DNA from: Anaerolineae bacterium
GTDB taxonomy: Bacteria > Chloroflexota > Anaerolineae > Aggregatilineales > Phototrophicaceae
NCBI GenBank assembly: GCA_022841825.1
Contig: JALHQT010000001.1
Span: 310,001 to 374,000, forward strand
Direction: 5' to 3'
Length of the DNA: 64,000 nucleotides
Shown here: one piece after another, positions 3,968 through 20,756 of the stretch
How the letters are laid out: each line of letters opens with the position of its first letter
How positions within the stretch are numbered: position 1 is the first letter of the stretch
Notes under the pieces: model-generated
Database searches by the model: none
Told to the model about the DNA's origin: nothing
What the model saw: the letters and a program-made list of their open reading frames with translations, nothing else
Program-made: the position numbers and the translations under genes

Positions 3968-5992
<2,025 letters not shown>

Positions 5993-8618: not shown

Positions 8619-8640
8619 GATGCCTAATCGCATACAAAAA

Positions 8641-8936
8641 ACGACCGTGAACTGAACGAGTACATATCCAAGCGGGTTGACAGAGAGTCGCCAGTGCTGA
8701 GAAGGCGACAGCATCGCAGATATGGAATGGCTCAGGGAGTCGCGCAGGTGAACGCACCTCTACAACGAGGCGGATGTCTACTAGCCTGTGCCGGAGCAGC
8801 CACCGTTATCTTGGCAAAAGGTATTGGCTCTTGTGCCTTTATCTGATAAGAGTGCTTTCAGGTTGAGCCTGAAGGTAACAAGGTGGCACCACGGGAATCC
8901 CCTCTCGTCCTTGACTGGCGAGGGGGGATTTTGTTT
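8641..8936 (+). promoter_or_regulatory. tRNA-Trp T-box riboswitch (trp operon leader)
   Basis: This fills most of the 457-base gap between polX and trpE. The T-box core AGGTGGCACCACGG (8881-8894) matches the consensus, and its UGGC bulge (8884-8887) would pair with GCCA of a tRNA whose discriminator base is G, as in bacterial tRNA-Trp. Stem I is recognisable: loop-E AGTA at 8659-8662, helix CATATC/GATATG (8663-8668/8719-8724), GAA (8725-8727), then the specifier TGG (8728-8730). A CTGA/TCAG lower helix (8652-8655/8732-8735) and a GTCGCC/GGCGAC apical stem (8687-8692/8704-8709) are present. The downstream terminator completes the switch. Uncharged tRNA-Trp would stabilise antitermination and turn on the trp genes and trpS. 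Confidence 0.9.
8896..8936 (+). terminator. T-box regulated intrinsic terminator before trpE
   Basis: AATCCCCTCTCG (8896-8907) pairs with CGAGGGGGGATT (8919-8930), 12 bp with one G-U, followed by a TTTTGTTT tract. Its 5' arm abuts the T-box sequence, as expected for mutually exclusive antiterminator and terminator forms. Confidence 0.88.
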
Positions 8937-15380: not shown

Positions 15381-15409
15381 TTGACAAGCACGGGAACGCG
15401 CGTTACCCT
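15381..15409 (+). promoter_or_regulatory. Sigma-70 promoter of the ilv/leu operon
   Basis: TTGACA (15381-15386), a 17-base spacer, then TACCCT (15404-15409). The expected start near 15416 leaves about 28 bases before the leader peptide ATG. The -35 is a perfect consensus. Confidence 0.78.
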
Positions 15410-15443
15410 TTACACATTACGGATTGAAAGCAATCGAAGCATC

Positions 15444-15515
15444 ATGAACCGCGCAAACCTTGTCGTAAGCCTTAGCCTTATTCTTGTAGTCCTCCTTATT
15501 ACGGGTGGATCGTAA
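15444..15515 (+). CDS. Branched-chain amino acid leader peptide (attenuator)
   Basis: This is a 23-codon ORF, ATG 15444 to TAA 15513-15515. Twelve of its 23 residues are Leu (6), Val (4) or Ile (2), concentrated in residues 6-19 (LVVSLSLILVVLLI). It starts about 28 bases after the predicted transcription start and stops 42 bases before a strong terminator, ahead of ilvE-ilvB-ilvN. This is the layout of an ilv leader peptide: ribosomes stall on Leu/Val/Ile codons when charged tRNAs run short, which changes the RNA fold downstream. The Shine-Dalgarno is weak. The peptide itself is not expected to have another function. It is unrelated in sequence to E. coli IlvL as far as I can recall, so the identification rests on composition and position. 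Confidence 0.85.
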   Translation: MNRANLVVSLSLILVVLLITGGS

Positions 15516-15572
15516 CTGCTTGGGCGGCGACTGAAACGCGGTACAACGTGTGAATGCAAAAGCCCCCCAAGC
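15449..15572 (+). promoter_or_regulatory. ilv attenuator: protector, antiterminator and terminator segments
   Basis: Three mutually exclusive pairings can be drawn. GCTTGGGCGGC (15518-15528, just after the leader stop) can pair with GCCCCCCAAGC (15562-15572, the terminator 5' arm and loop) with one C-C mismatch, forming an antiterminator. The same 15518-15527 segment can instead pair, 8 of 10, with CCGCGCAAAC (15449-15458) at the start of the leader peptide, freeing the terminator. A ribosome stalled on the Leu/Val/Ile codons (15459-15500) would cover that first segment and favour antitermination. The pairings are read from sequence; the mechanism is inferred from classical amino acid attenuators. 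Confidence 0.8.
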
Positions 15573-15583
15573 GGGGGCTTTTT
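15558..15583 (+). terminator. Intrinsic terminator of the ilv attenuator
   Basis: AAAAGCCCCC (15558-15567) pairs with GGGGGCTTTT (15573-15582) around a CAAGC loop, with a run of five T at 15579-15583. It lies between the leader peptide and ilvE. Confidence 0.92.
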
Positions 15584-15603
15584 CGTTGAAATGAGGAAGA
15601 CGA

Positions 15604-15816
15604 ATGGGCGCACAGCATACTCCAAGTACGACCAGTCAGCATACGCAGTCGATGGCGATGTTGTCTGCCTCTCCGTGCGCGCCTAAGCGTGGCACGGAGC
15701 AAACTGCTGTGCGCCCCATGCAAGCCCTTGCGCAGCATAACGCGCTTTCCCCAGCGAAGGTCGTCCCGGATACGACAGGCGTTGCGGAAAGCGCGTTTTA
15801 TTTCTGCTACTGGTAA
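15604..15816 (+). CDS. Possible 70-residue small protein between attenuator and ilvE
   Basis: ATG 15604 is preceded by a strong GAGGAA (15594-15599), and the frame ends at TAA 15814-15816, 28 bases before ilvE. The product is Thr/Ser/Gln/Ala-rich with no recognised domain; its last residues FYFCYW are aromatic. The same bases carry long perfect inverted repeats (15606-15716 and 15739-15797), which argues that RNA structure is the selected feature. Coding is therefore uncertain: it may be a second leader peptide, a small protein, or not translated. Confidence 0.3.
   Translation: MGAQHTPSTTSQHTQSMAMLSASPCAPKRGTEQTAVRPMQALAQHNALSPAKVVPDTTGVAESAFYFCYW
15606..15716 (+). ncRNA. Structured leader RNA domain upstream of ilvE (unrecognised type)
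   Basis: GGGCGCACAGCA (15606-15617) is perfectly complementary over 12 bp to TGCTGTGCGCCC (15705-15716), closing a domain of 111 bases. Inside it CTCCGTGC (15671-15678) pairs with GCACGGAG (15692-15699), extended by CGC/GCG around a CTAA loop. It lies between the attenuator terminator and ilvE and does not resemble any riboswitch I recognise. Together with the next hairpin it fills the rest of the 540-base trpF-ilvE gap. Confidence 0.6.
15739..15804 (+). terminator. Second terminator-like hairpin before ilvE
   Basis: AACGCGCTTTCC (15739-15750) pairs perfectly over 12 bp with GGAAAGCGCGTT (15786-15797), followed by TTATTTC. The 35-base loop has its own GTCGT/ACGAC stem (15760-15764/15772-15776). 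It could be a second attenuator or a structured RNA element; read-through is required for ilvE expression from the upstream promoter. Confidence 0.5.
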
Positions 15817-15844
15817 CCCGGCATACAGGAGAGTGAGAGCGACT

Positions 15845-16762
15845 ATGCAGCCGACGGAATTCATCTGGAAGAATGGCGAGTTTGTCAAATGGGCGGACGC
15901 GACGGTACATGTGACGGCGCATGTCTTGCATTACGGCAGCAGCGTTTTCGAGGGGGTGCGAACCTACGCGACCAAGACAGGTCCGGCAGTCTTCCGCTTG
16001 CAGCCCCACACCCGCCGCTTGTTTAACTCGGCGAAGCTGGCGCGGATGGAGATGCCTTTCACCGAAGATCAGATCAATAAGGCGGTCGTCGAGACCGTCA
16101 AGTGCAACAATCTGGGTGCCTGCTATATCCGCCCGCTTGCGTTCCGTGATGCGGGGCTGATGGGCGTGGAAGGTCGCAAGAACCCGACCAGCATCGTCAT
16201 TTTCGCCTTTGAATGGGGCAAATACCTGGGCAAAGAGGCAATTGAGCAGGGGGTAGATGTGCAGGTGAGTTCCTGGCGTCGCCTTGCGCCGGGAACGTCG
16301 GCATCGACCGCCAAGATTGGTGGTCAATACGTCAACAGCCAGTTCATTACGATGGAAGCGCACGACAACGGTATGGCGGAGGGCATCGCGCTCGACATCC
16401 ATAACAATGTGAGCGAAGGTGCAGGCGAAAACATCTTTGTCATCATGGGGAACACCGTCTATACCCCCGGTATGGCATCATCGATTTTACTGGGCATCAC
16501 GCGTGACTCGGTCATCACGCTGCTGCGCGACCTCGGCTACGAAGTCCGGTTCGAGACCATCAGTCGTGACATGCTCTACCTGGCGGATGAAGTCTTCTTC
16601 ACCGGGACGGCAGCAGAAGTGACGCCCATTCGCAGCATTGACCGCATCCAGATTGGTCAAGGTGCGCGGGGTCCAGTCACGGCGGCGGTACAGGAAGAAT
16701 TCTTTGCGATCACGACTGGCGAAAAGCCCGACCGTCACGGTTGGCTGACCCCGGTTGAATAA
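15845..16762 (+). CDS. ilvE: Branched-chain amino acid aminotransferase
   Basis: Fold-type IV PLP aminotransferase of 305 residues performing the last step to Leu, Ile and Val. WKNGEFVKWADATVHVTAH and LHYGSSVFEGVRTY form the N-terminal domain. Lys in TSASTAKIGGQYVNS is the Schiff-base lysine. GMAEGIALD, VSEGAGENIF and FFTGTAAEVTPI are the usual cofactor- and substrate-binding segments. ATG 15845 follows an AGGAG; an upstream in-frame start at 15689 would translate structured leader RNA and is rejected. It is the first enzyme gene after the attenuator. D-amino acid and 4-amino-4-deoxychorismate relatives share the fold; length, motifs and the ilvB neighbour favour IlvE. Confidence 0.95.
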   Translation: MQPTEFIWKNGEFVKWADATVHVTAHVLHYGSSVFEGVRTYATKTGPAVFRLQPHTRRLFNSAKLARMEMPFTEDQINKAVVETVKCNNLGACYIRPLAFRDAGLMGVEGRKNPTSIVIFAFEWGKYLGKEAIEQGVDVQVSSWRRLAPGTSASTAKIGGQYVNSQFITMEAHDNGMAEGIALDIHNNVSEGAGENIFVIMGNTVYTPGMASSILLGITRDSVITLLRDLGYEVRFETISRDMLYLADEVFFTGTAAEVTPIRSIDRIQIGQGARGPVTAAVQEEFFAITTGEKPDRHGWLTPVE

Positions 16763-16798: not shown

Positions 16799-18517
16799 AT
16801 GGCAAAGCGGTTACTAAGCGGATCAGAGATTCTCCTTGAATGTCTCGTGGAACAAGGTGTCCAGTACATCTGGGGGTATCCCGGCGGGGCAATCCTGCCG
16901 ACTTACGATGCACTGCCGAAGTATCGTGATCGCATCCATCATATCCTGGTACGCCACGAACAGAGCGCGGCGCACATGGCGGATGGATATGCACGCGCGA
17001 CTGGAAAAGTGGGTGTGTGCATGGCGACCAGCGGTCCTGGCGCGACGAACCTCGTGACAGGGATTGCGACGGCGATGATGGATAGTTCGCCCATCGTGTG
17101 CATCACCGGGCAGGTGCCGCGCCCCGTGATTGGTACCGACGCCTTCCAGGAGACCGACGTCACGGGGATTACGCTGCCCATTACCAAACACAATTATCTT
17201 GTCATGGACATTCATGACCTGGCGGATGCCATTCGCGAAGCATTTTATATTGCCGCAAGCGGGCGTCCGGGTCCTGTGCTGGTCGATATTCCGAAGGATA
17301 TTCAGAATCAGAAGATCGAGTGGGAGTACCCCACGACACCGCTCAAGCTGCCAGGGTATCGACCGCCGAAGATGGCGACGCAGGAGCAGGTGACTGAAGC
17401 GCTGAAGCTGATCAATGAGGCGAAGAAGCCGCTGATCCTGGCAGGGCACGGCTTGATGATGAGCGGCTCGACCAATGAAGCGCGCGAACTCGCCGAAATT
17501 GCGCAGATCCCTGTGGCGCTGACGCTGCTGGGCAAGGGCGCGATGCCGGAAGATCATCCGCTCGTCATCGGCATGATGGGGATGCACGGTGCGGCAGCCA
17601 GCAATTACGCGATTCAGGATGCTGATCTGCTGATCGCGCTGGGGATGCGCTTCGACGACCGCGTGACGGGCAACCTGAAAACCTATTCCCCGAACAGCAA
17701 GAAGATCCATATCGATATTGATCCGTCCGAAATCAACAAGAACGTCAAGGTCGAGGTCGGGATTGCGGGTGACCTGAAGGCGGTGCTCACGCAGCTTCTG
17801 CCGGGGGTCGAGCAGAACAGTCACGCGGAGTGGATGGGCAAGATCCGCGACTGGATGGAAGACTCTGATGAGCGCGACATCATTCACCGCGATACGGGGA
17901 ACATACTCCTGGGCGCGCAGGTGATCAACGACATCTGGAAACATACGGGCGGCGAAGCCATCACGACGACCGACGTAGGTCAGCATCAGATGCTCGAAGC
18001 GCAGTACTACCCGCACAAGCGCCCGCTGACCATGATCAGCAGCGGCGGTCTGGGGACGATGGGATTTGGTTTGCCCGCCGCCATTGGCGCAAAGTTTGGC
18101 AAGCCTGACGAAGAAGTGTGGGCGATTGTCGGCGATGGCGGCTTCCAGATGACCATGCCGGAACTTGCGACGGCGGTGCAAGAGGGTATCCACGTCACCA
18201 TCGCCATCATCAACAATGGGTTCCTGGGGATGGTGCGCCAGTGGCAGGAACTGTTCCACGACAAGAACTACAGTGAGACGCCGATGTTCAGCCCGGATTT
18301 CGTCAAGATTGCCGAGGCATACGGCATCCCGGCGATGCGCATCACGAACCGATCCCAGATTGAAGGCGCGGTGGCATTTTCGCGCAGCTACAAAGACAGC
18401 CGCGTGCCGGTTCTTCTGGAGTTCGTGGTGGAAAAAGAAGAGATGGTCTATCCGATGGTGCCTGCGGGCGCGAACCTGCACGACATGGTGCGTCGCCCCA
18501 AAGTGAGCGAGGAATAG
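16799..18517 (+). CDS. ilvB: Acetolactate synthase large subunit
   Basis: ThDP-, FAD- and Mg-dependent enzyme of 572 residues catalysing the first common step of Val/Leu and Ile synthesis. The catalytic Glu54 is in RHEQSAAHMADGYARATG. MATSGPGATNLVTGIATAMM, FQETDVTGITLPITKHNY and RPGPVLVDIPKDIQ are typical. The C-terminal ThDP motif runs from IVGDGGFQMTMPELATA to INNGFLGMVRQWQ. A good AGGAG precedes ATG 16799. The small subunit gene starts 4 bases after its stop. A long antisense frame on the other strand is a codon-bias shadow. Confidence 0.97.
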   Translation: MAKRLLSGSEILLECLVEQGVQYIWGYPGGAILPTYDALPKYRDRIHHILVRHEQSAAHMADGYARATGKVGVCMATSGPGATNLVTGIATAMMDSSPIVCITGQVPRPVIGTDAFQETDVTGITLPITKHNYLVMDIHDLADAIREAFYIAASGRPGPVLVDIPKDIQNQKIEWEYPTTPLKLPGYRPPKMATQEQVTEALKLINEAKKPLILAGHGLMMSGSTNEARELAEIAQIPVALTLLGKGAMPEDHPLVIGMMGMHGAAASNYAIQDADLLIALGMRFDDRVTGNLKTYSPNSKKIHIDIDPSEINKNVKVEVGIAGDLKAVLTQLLPGVEQNSHAEWMGKIRDWMEDSDERDIIHRDTGNILLGAQVINDIWKHTGGEAITTTDVGQHQMLEAQYYPHKRPLTMISSGGLGTMGFGLPAAIGAKFGKPDEEVWAIVGDGGFQMTMPELATAVQEGIHVTIAIINNGFLGMVRQWQELFHDKNYSETPMFSPDFVKIAEAYGIPAMRITNRSQIEGAVAFSRSYKDSRVPVLLEFVVEKEEMVYPMVPAGANLHDMVRRPKVSEE

Positions 18518-18521
18518 CACG

Positions 18522-19085
18522 ATGCCAGACAGTCAACAGCAGAAGAAGCACACGATCGTGGCGCTGGTGCAGAATCAACCTGGCGTCCTGATGCGCGTGG
18601 CGAACATGTTCCGCCGCCGCAACTTCAACATCGACAGCCTGAGCGTTGGGCGTACCCACCGCGAGGATGTCTCGCGTATGACCATCGTCATCGATAACAC
18701 GCGCGCCAATGCCTACAAGGTGATGTCGAATCTCCTCAAGCTCATCCCGATCATTGATGTGGCGGATGTCTCGGCAGATCTCCACGTCAGCCGCGACCTT
18801 GCGCTGGTGAAAGTGCGCTCGAATGATGCGGAATCGCGCAACGCGCTGACTCTGTTGTGCGAAAAGTTTCCTGCGCGAATCGTGGATATTGGTCCCGATG
18901 TGGTGATTGTCGAGATCACCGCGCAGGAAGAGATCGTCGAAGCATTCATTGCCGAGGCAGACCAGATCGGCATTGTCGAGATGGTACGCACGGGCGTGGT
19001 CGCGATGGGGCGTGGCGTGCGCATTCTTGACGTGCCCGACGAAGAGGAAGCGTTGGAAATGAGCGCTAATGGTCATCGCGTCTAG
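18522..19085 (+). CDS. ilvN: Acetolactate synthase small (regulatory) subunit
   Basis: This 187-residue protein has an N-terminal ACT domain (about 10-85: HTIVALVQNQPGVLMRVANM, FNIDSLSVGRTHREDVSRMTIV) and a C-terminal IlvN domain (about 95-175: LALVKVRSN, FPARIVDIGPDVVIVEITA). In known enzymes the ACT domain binds valine and mediates feedback inhibition, and the C-terminal domain activates the large subunit. It lies 4 bases after ilvB. The length is slightly greater than the usual 160-175 residues because of a short acidic tail (EEEALEMSANGHRV). Confidence 0.96.
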   Translation: MPDSQQQKKHTIVALVQNQPGVLMRVANMFRRRNFNIDSLSVGRTHREDVSRMTIVIDNTRANAYKVMSNLLKLIPIIDVADVSADLHVSRDLALVKVRSNDAESRNALTLLCEKFPARIVDIGPDVVIVEITAQEEIVEAFIAEADQIGIVEMVRTGVVAMGRGVRILDVPDEEEALEMSANGHRV

Positions 19086-19148: not shown

Positions 19149-20756
19149 ATGAGCGCAAACCAGATCGATCCGAATGTAGTCCGCATATTCGATACCACAC
19201 TGCGTGACGGCGAACAAAGCCCTGGTGCGACACTGCGCAGCGCCGAGAAGATGGAAATCGCTCGCCAGCTTGCCAAACTTGGCGTGGACATCATCGAAGC
19301 GGGCTTTCCAGCGGCTTCGCCTGATGATCTTGCGGCTGTACAGCGTATCGCTCGCGAGGTTGGTACTGCGGATGGCCCCATCATCGCGGGACTGGCACGG
19401 GCGAAAGAGCATGATATTCGCACCTGCTGGGAGGGCGTGAAGTTTGCCGCCAAGCCGCGCATTCATACCTTCCTCGGCACTTCGGACATTCATCTCAAGT
19501 ATCAGACGGGCTTAAGCCGTGCCGAGGCGCTGGAAGTCGTCCGAAACATGGTGACGCTGGCGCGCAGCCTGTGCGAGGATGTGGAATTCAGCCCGATGGA
19601 TGCCGGGCGCACTGATCCGGGCTTCCTGGTCGAAGTGTGCGCGATGGCGATTGCCTGTGGCGCGACGACGATCAACGTGCCGGACACGGTGGGCTATACC
19701 ATCCCCGCCGAGCACGGCGCGATGTTCGAGATGCTGATCGCCGAGACGCCGGGTGGCGGCGCTGACAGCGGCATCATCTGGTCAGCGCATTGTCACAACG
19801 ATTTGGGCTTGGCAACGGCGAATACGCTGGCGGCGATCTCGGCGGGTGCGCGGCAGGTCGAAGTGACGATCAACGGGATTGGCGAGCGCGCAGGCAACAC
19901 CAGCCTGGAAGAAGTGGTGATGGCAATTGAGACGCGCAAGCCCTACTACAACCTGCGCACTCACATCAACACCCGCGAGATCATGAAGACCAGCAAGATG
20001 GTCAGCAACTATACGGGGCTGGCGGTGCAGGTCAATAAGGCGGTCGTCGGCAAGAATGCCTTCGCGCATGAGGCGGGGATTCATCAGGATGGGATGCTCA
20101 AGCACGCCAGCACCTACGAGATCATGAAGCCGGAAGATGTGGGGTTGGATCGCAGTAAGCTGGTGCTGGGCAAGCACAGTGGTCGCCACGCGCTGAAGGC
20201 GCGCTTGCAGGAATTGGGCTTCGCGATCGAGGGCGATCTGCTCAATAAGGTCTTCGAGCGCTTCAAGGTGCTGGCGGACGCCAAGAAGAACATCACCGAT
20301 GCTGATCTGGTCGCGCTGATGAGCGACGAAGGCGCGAAGCCTGTCGAATACTTTAAGCTGGTCGATATGCAGGTGGTCTGTGGCACGATGGGGATGCCGA
20401 CCGCGACGATGAAAGTGCTCGACCAGGAGGGACACGAGATCATTCATGCGGCGGTCGGCGTAGGTCCGGTTGATGCGTGTTACCGTGCGGTCGATGGCAT
20501 CGTCAAAGCGCCCTGCGTGCTGACCGAGTACGCGGTGCATGCCGTGACTGAAGGCATCGATGCGCTGGGCGAAGTCACGGTCAGCATTCAGGCACCCGAC
20601 AGCGACCGGACATTCAGCGGCTCTGGTGCTGACCCGGATATTGTCGTGAGCAGTGTTCGCGCCTATTTGTCGGCGCTCAATCGCATGATTGCGGCAATGG
20701 GACACGGCGATGTACAGCCCGAAGGGGAAGCGGCAGCCGTGAGCGTAGGTGACTGA
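19149..20756 (+). CDS. leuA: 2-isopropylmalate synthase
   Basis: DRE-TIM metallolyase of 535 residues that condenses acetyl-CoA with 2-oxoisovalerate, the committed step of leucine synthesis. [16 protein letters not shown] (about 14-29) is the signature. [23 protein letters not shown] holds the metal-binding Hx[20 protein letters not shown] and [10 protein letters not shown] follow. The C-terminal region (about 375-520, [29 protein letters not shown]) is the LeuA allosteric domain that mediates leucine feedback. An AAGGGAAGAAG precedes ATG 19149. A second DRE-TIM enzyme (CimA) is encoded downstream at 24666. Confidence 0.95.

Follow-up and report, generated by a model that had tools for sequence, protein, structure and literature searches.

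Positions 15381-15583 (+ strand) of the 64,000-nt stretch of Anaerolineae DNA analyzed here, hereafter the window, very probably form a ribosome-mediated transcription attenuator of ilvE-ilvB-ilvN(-leuA), as judged from the window and sequences related to it. The original prediction had proposed a classical attenuator of ilvE-ilvB-ilvN. Its elements were present in the window and, except for the protector helix, conserved in relatives, and leuA was added downstream. The structural genes of the branched-chain amino acid (BCAA) pathway that follow the leader were all on the + strand and were identified by NCBIfam models above their cut-offs. They are ilvE (15845-16762, branched-chain amino acid transaminase; PRK06606 and TIGR01122), ilvB (16799-18517, acetolactate synthase large subunit; TIGR00118), ilvN (18522-19085, acetolactate synthase small subunit; TIGR00119 and PRK11895) and leuA (19149-20756, 2-isopropylmalate synthase; TIGR00973), which lies 63 nt 3′ of ilvN.

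The leader starts with a promoter-like site on the + strand (15381-15409), with TTGACA at 15381-15386, a 17-nt spacer and TACCCT at 15404-15409. It had been claimed to be a consensus promoter. The -35 element is indeed perfect and recurs in relatives, but the -10 element has only three of six matches, and for this reason the site was absent from the list of our consensus scan. Among the first leaders, 55 of 66 had an exact TTGACA in the best site, 56-98 nt 5′ of the leader start, compared with 11 of 1320 shuffles; the 11 without it were L005, L029, L030, L045, L049, L107, L117 and L123-L126. The mean best promoter score was 9.4, versus 7.6 in shuffled sequences (74 leaders, including the second leaders of tandem pairs).

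Leader ORF 1 (15444-15515, + strand) encodes MNRANLVVSLSLILVVLLITGGS in 23 codons. As had been predicted, 12 of the 22 codons after the start are Leu, Val or Ile, and an ORF rich in these residues was found at the equivalent place in relatives. The same-genus genome G009 and L004 (labelled Anaerolineae bacterium CFX9) share one leader peptide, and the closest labelled relatives place the window in Chloroflexota/Anaerolineae, a placement that depends on the labels of related contigs. In 49 leaders, 90% of a 12-residue core was Ile (28%), Leu (33%) or Val (28%). Codon choice was also peculiar. CTT and CTC made up 80% of the Leu codons in the 49 leaders versus 21% in ilvB of related loci, and CTG 7.5% versus 49%. 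Similarly, GTA accounted for 29% of the Val codons versus 7.6% in ilvB, and GTG for 10% versus 41%. The Leu and Val codons of the leaders are thus skewed to CTT, CTC, GTC and GTA. If these are read by scarcer tRNAs, they would sharpen the response of the leader; a general avoidance of G in the leader stretch is an alternative cause of the skew.

ORF 1 is strongly hydrophobic, and a terminator behind the trp operon that lies upstream would be ordinary. The ORF might therefore encode a small membrane-spanning protein, with the hairpin simply terminating that gene or the trp operon. We consider this very improbable. Membrane helices have a residue make-up unlike a core of nearly only Ile, Leu and Val, in which Ser reached 6%, Ala 1% and Phe 0.2%, and Met, Trp and Tyr were absent. 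Besides this residue make-up, the skewed Leu and Val codons disfavour a hydrophobic small protein, as does an antiterminator that covaries at a near-fixed distance from the stop codon (see below). Moreover, the leader keeps its position before different first genes, which by NCBIfam are ilvE in the window and ilvD in L034, L035 and L053.

The claimed intrinsic terminator was found between the leader ORF and ilvE, at 15558-15583 (+ strand). It reads AAAAGCCCCC-CAAGC-GGGGGCTTTTT, pairing 15558-15567 with 15573-15582, and its U-run is at 15579-15583. In the window (15554-15587) and in many relatives, GTT often follows the U-run and AAC often precedes the A-run. As these match each other, pairing in the terminator stem may continue across the U-run in the window and in many relatives. 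The 5′ strand of the antiterminator, CTGCTTGGGCGGC (15516-15528), stands immediately 3′ of the ORF 1 stop codon and is complementary to the 3′ strand, GCCCCCCAAGCGG (15562-15574), inside the terminator hairpin. The pairing of 15518-15528 with 15562-15572 proposed earlier held at 10 of 11 positions and covaried in relatives.

When the segment after the stop codon was left free, it folded in silico as the antiterminator (-29.3 kcal/mol in the window), and once the 12 nt that follow the stop codon were masked, the predicted fold changed to the terminator. The distance from the stop codon to TTGGG was 4 nt in 34 of the 42 leaders of the window type. By this spacing and the masked fold, a ribosome at the stop codon would cover the antiterminator strand and one stalled at the regulatory codons would not. 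In sister families the leader ORF is longer, and its final codons contain the 5′ strand of the antiterminator (15 of 57 units).

We infer the transcription start, ribosome stalling, termination and the cellular response as follows. RNA polymerase would start about 30 nt 5′ of the leader ORF. With an ample supply of charged tRNAs for Leu, Val and Ile, the ribosome would reach the stop codon (15513-15515) and cover the next ~12 nt, which hold the 5′ antiterminator strand. With 15516-15528 covered, terminator 1 would form and transcription would stop. When the charged tRNAs are scarce, the ribosome would stall in the Leu/Val/Ile run, leaving the 5′ strand free to pair with 15562-15574; the terminator would then not form, and transcription would continue into the ilv genes.

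Folded alone, the window leader was only moderately better than its shuffles (z = -2.3 and -2.0). The strength of the case for the predicted attenuator comes from comparison across relatives and not from the folding of a single sequence. We restricted the test of the antiterminator to the 57 of 100 distinct units that had both anchors, TTGGG and CCCAA, setting 43 aside; these 57 yielded 47 distinct pairs. In the four flanking columns, 147 of 188 cells paired, compared with 99.4 ± 5.3 when the partners were redealt among the 47 pairs. Both sides had changed in 45 cells versus 19.4 ± 3.1 in shuffles, and the covariation score was 0.205 versus 0.066 ± 0.012; neither value was reached in any of 500 shuffles of the 47 sequences, although such counts are not probabilities because related sequences are not independent. 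The true register scored above all six slid registers. The number of antiterminator pairs with changes on both sides (seven) was unremarkable, since 66 of 500 shuffles had as many, and beyond the anchor, on its far side, three pairs had no excess over shuffles. In an anchor-free test of the best duplex between each unit and its own terminator, P ≤ 0.05 was obtained in 55 of 100 units and P ≤ 0.01 in 23.

A protector helix between 15449-15458 and 15518-15527 had also been claimed. Eight of its 10 positions pair in the window, with a duplex of -17.9 kcal/mol, but comparison lent it no support: against synonymous resampling, duplexes between the ORF and the antiterminator strand had P ≤ 0.05 in just five of 42 leaders (median P = 0.335). 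Compensatory changes had been expected in three helices. The antiterminator covaried; the terminator recurred in relatives, where it is built into the scan criterion, with 0 matches in four controls; and the protector helix was not supported. Several points speak against the attenuator. The protector, which would impose termination when the leader is untranslated, shows no conservation in the 42 leaders, and one locus, L113 (= L028), has no U-run. Further points are the missing Rfam leader match at gathering score, own-terminator pairing with P ≤ 0.05 in 55 of 100 units and not in all, the unremarkable number of pairs changed on both sides, and the 23 of 40 phylum regions in which no unit was seen. 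This locus (leader 5227-5301) keeps the leader and the antiterminator, and its terminator hairpin without a U-run lies shortly before the next ATG. Possibly it has switched from transcriptional to translational control.

In alignment with related genomes, all of the BCAA-rich ORF, the terminator and the covarying antiterminator recurred, as the original prediction required. We defined a unit as a frame with at least eight Ile, Leu or Val in 10 residues followed by a terminator, and scanned 80 loci around the closest ilvB relatives. Upstream of ilvB, 53 of the 80 loci had such a unit (58 units). The controls held none: 0/80 for the reverse strand, 0/80 for ilvB with its downstream sequence whichever strand was read, and no unit in any of 10 dinucleotide-shuffled sets. 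When the same scan was run with seven other residue triplets, it found 0-9 loci, nine being the figure for Ala/Val/Gly. At a threshold of seven in 10, units were present in 39 of 40 loci labelled Chloroflexi (reverse strand 0/40) and in 18 of 37 labelled Acidobacteriota (reverse strand 0), a split by record labels sorted by hand, in which the other three records of the 80 (one Myxococcales, one Didemnitutus and one 'uncultured bacterium') were not counted. The sole Chloroflexi-labelled locus missed was L028, which has the leader and antiterminator but no U-run. At least two types of BCAA leader were seen in Acidobacteriota (L036, L038-L043, L056, L064, L073, L077 and L079), one of them with an antiterminator like GCGGATGAT(G)/(C)ATCATCCGC running over the stop codon.

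We also surveyed 61 genomes of the order, our own included, in a tally made by hand. Among the 47 assessable genomes, 43 had the unit at the scan threshold; one of these, G025, was atypical, with the unit about 90 nt before ilvB. In the other four it was recognized by relaxed inspection, G027 having no U-run and G048, G053 and G058 having six of 10 residues. The remaining 14 (G007, G011, G014, G019, G034, G036, G037, G040, G050, G052, G055, G056, G057 and G060) were not judged, owing to an incomplete ilvB match or a contig end, or, for G050, a sequence that was not included. In the phylum, 121 genomes were searched, 93 had an ilvB match, and 40 upstream regions from 34 families were taken. The unit was present in 17 of the 40 regions (reverse strand 0) and not in the other 23. 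All six class-mates from outside the order had it, and so did 11 of the 34 others, several of them doubtful; L191 and L204 are among the doubtful ones of the 17. The loci of the two collections partly overlap, only identical units were merged, and many of the genomes are metagenome drafts.

A model of the leader, R1, found one attenuator copy in the own genome (E = 6.6e-13; the next match had E = 5.55). With stricter filters it matched only 15 of 301 phylum genomes, so R1 does not gauge prevalence. Elsewhere R1 matched at E of 1e-4 to 7e-3 per genome. From translations read by eye, we take the genes after these matches to be ilvB (L160, L165), dihydroxy-acid dehydratase (L166, L170), DAHP synthase (L158, L162), a LivK-like binding protein (L161) and acyl-CoA ligase (L167-L169). 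No leader was seen at the matches L158, L163 and L164. The match in L159 stands behind a TatA-like frame; it was rejected as an attenuator and is probably just the terminator of a gene. Attenuator-like hairpins precede the DAHP synthase-like gene in L158 and L162, and in L162 a frame with SRYYFYI near the hairpin suggests an aromatic amino-acid leader. In the small genomes L167, L168 and L169, a short frame resembling F..TF.FT.RTRVRLG and a GCTTGGG/CCCAAGC pairing precede the acyl-CoA ligase-like gene.

The trp genes lie on the + strand upstream of the leader, and a T-box (RF00230, 103 bits) at 8638-8915 precedes trpE. It was the only Rfam match at gathering score in the window. This T-box and the ilv leader lie in one genome segment, and both are leaders of the transcription-attenuation kind that serve amino-acid operons; T-boxes, however, sense tRNA directly and have no leader peptide. 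As the T-box precedes trpE, the neighboring trp and ilv operons seem to be served by two different attenuation mechanisms. The presence of this T-box raises the alternative that terminator 1, too, is controlled by a T-box, a riboswitch or a protein-binding leader, with the ORF being incidental; elsewhere, ilv genes are targets of ppGpp riboswitches and of CodY, according to the available parts of PMC10272879 and PMC5864092. We hold it to be highly unlikely. No known RNA family or riboswitch reached threshold at the leader: no Rfam leader family did so at gathering score there or in 14 loci, the best score at the window leader being a sub-threshold 22.1 bits for Phe_leader (versus 55 bits), and RF00230 did not match at the ilv leader. 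From promoter to terminator the leader is about 170 nt, mostly taken up by the ORF, antiterminator and terminator, and its conserved parts are the Ile/Leu/Val codons and the antiterminator, with no aptamer family at gathering score. The attenuator driven by leader translation is therefore preferred.

Two Ile/Leu/Val leader-terminator units stood in series at nine loci, eight of them distinct (L033, L034, L035, L045, L053/L128 counted once, L118, L122 and L130). The second leader started 20-69 nt after the first terminator. None of the eight second leaders had a second promoter-like site. Since their promoter scores were 4.5-7, both leaders of a pair are probably on one transcript. In L034 the genes after the tandem leaders are ilvD, ilvE, ilvB, an ilvN-sized frame, ilvC and leuA.

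In the window, a second terminator-like element precedes ilvE on the + strand. Hairpin 2 (15739-15797) pairs AACGCGCTTTCCCCAGCG at 15739-15756 with 15780-15797 and is followed by TTTTATTT. It is overlapped by ORF 2 (15604-15816, + strand), which has 70 codons and is poor in Ile, Leu and Val; an AGGA (15594-15597) precedes its ATG at a distance of 6 nt. From another ATG, at 15591, a 31-codon ORF could be read that ends before hairpin 2; the AGGA favours ATG 15604 over ATG 15591 as the predicted start. Elements like hairpin 2 were also found in the same-genus L083 and L132 and in others. A repeat or mobile element was rejected as the source of the hairpins in 15585-15844, for which the own genome gave nothing beyond the segment itself, its inverted repeat and three matches that were short and weak.

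Among 92 leader loci, the distance from the last BCAA terminator to ilvE was at least 120 nt in 37 and less than 120 nt in 25; in the remaining 30, the next 560 nt held no recognizable ilvE start. A long hairpin with a U-run was present in 29 of the 37 roomy loci (the window and 28 relatives), compared with 10 of 740 shuffles. In all 29, a frame starting upstream was open into the 5′ arm, an overlap that was itself the selection rule. Without this rule, the 5′-most ATG ORF of at least 20 codons reached the arm in 27 of the 29, compared with 4.6 ± 2.1 (maximum 11) in shuffles. The two exceptions were L012 and the window, the latter because a different short frame begins at ATG 15591. The end of ORF 2 falls within the loop, within the 3′ arm or past hairpin 2; in L101 it falls where the 5′ arm has its edge. 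In the relatives L003, L012, L094 and L117, unannotated examples of ORF 2 were seen before ilvE.

The composition of ORF 2 is the opposite of that of ORF 1. In the 29 ORFs up to the hairpin, Ile, Leu and Val made up 45 of 1264 residues (3.6%) versus 14.7 ± 0.9% after base shuffling, and Phe, Met, Trp and Tyr together 12.6% versus 6.0 ± 0.6%. As the former are depleted while the latter are enriched, ORF 2 avoids branched-chain residues, beyond mere hydrophilicity. Over the whole length the Ile/Leu/Val fraction was 123 of 1781 (6.9%), with 10% in ORF 2 of the window alone. Under a longest-ORF rule, L003, L089 and L117 gave another frame and the overall fraction became 8.5%.

A ribosome finishing ORF 2 would sit on or near the hairpin, so translation of ORF 2 would prevent terminator 2. 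On this reading, read-through may require translation of ORF 2, and the operon may answer to a lack of BCAAs only when the supply of other amino acids is adequate. We tentatively propose a two-step gate as a possible reading: leader 1 would pass the polymerase when BCAAs are scarce, and ORF 2, purged of those codons, would block terminator 2 when translated as far as hairpin 2 or across it. The ilv operon would then be read only if BCAAs are scarce and other amino acids and translation are in good supply. We know of no described control element in which a leader frame is selected to avoid the sensed codons. In sister families another predicted BCAA leader is in the second place.

ORF 2 could instead encode an ordinary small protein, with hairpin 2 acting as a partial terminator or an RNA-processing hairpin. 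This explanation competes with the gate and not with attenuator 1, and we regard it as evenly balanced. A peptide motif common to ten ORF 2 leaders, SPWTE...DAL..YN, suggests a protein product; its profile matched 17 of 98 family genomes, once each, the own genome not being among them. A Shine-Dalgarno-like motif preceded only 13 of the 29 ORFs (by a simple pattern), and the 25 loci with less than 120 nt before ilvE have little room for a second element. Three ORF 2 peptides had no Pfam match. However, avoidance of Ile, Leu and Val together with enrichment of Phe, Met, Trp and Tyr would be odd for a protein and is expected of a frame read in BCAA shortage. The ORFs 2 of L083, L097 and L132, which are free of the motif, were also low in Ile, Leu and Val (4.5-7.1% of the whole ORF).

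Leader-peptide attenuation is usually told as a proteobacterial and actinobacterial mechanism, with some cases in Firmicutes, and ilvGMEDA, ilvBN and leuABCD of E. coli are ribosome-mediated attenuators of BCAA operons. Among the papers covered, we found no earlier report of leader-peptide attenuation of ilv genes in Chloroflexi; the multi-phylum survey of Lopatovskaya et al. (2010) may include one. In the parts available, PMC4833913 brings up Chloroflexi solely for the comparatively small number of genomes in that group, and PMC9413887 deals with his genes in Gram-positive bacteria. Those of PMC10272879 describe a uORF at ilvB-II of Corynebacterium and, for ilvB-OMG motifs from various phyla, uORFs that are BCAA-rich; those of PMC5864092 describe the Listeria rli60 attenuator before ilvD, and those of PMC8632094 a cysS attenuator along with motifs for ilvD and for ilvB of Leptospira. 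So far as these accounts go, the window leader has in common with E. coli, Corynebacterium ilvBNC/ilvB-II and Listeria rli60 a Leu/Val/Ile ORF, a terminator, a competing antiterminator and BCAA genes downstream. Unlike them, it is in another phylum and has the antiterminator strand directly after the stop codon (sister families have it inside the ORF, at its 3′ end), and leaders of its type have no clearly conserved protector and, in many cases, a second element behind. The ilvB-OMG and Leptospira ilvB motifs (PMC10272879, PMC8632094) likewise have BCAA-rich uORFs predicted before ilvB, a likeness drawn from their partial descriptions only.

The available part of PMC3641672 presents Salmonella mgtCBR as a singular case in which attenuators in tandem answer to different signals. 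As in mgtCBR, with its mgtM and mgtP, two short leader ORFs stand here in series and are tied to stem-loops. As described there in part, the ATP and proline signals of mgtCBR add up, whereas here both leaders are BCAA-rich (eight distinct loci) or the second ORF is BCAA-poor (29 leaders).

The predicted attenuation at the BCAA operon extends over the Anaerolineae examined, i.e. the order and all six class-mates outside it, and about half of the Acidobacteriota loci. Because of this occurrence, the mechanism would either be of great age or have arisen anew many times. The loci with two leaders in series also provide a natural set of tandem cases. The opposite compositions within one leader, with about 90% Ile, Leu and Val in the ORF 1 core and 3.6% in ORF 2 before its hairpin, raise the question of whether a starvation switch may also carry a check that other amino acids are in order.
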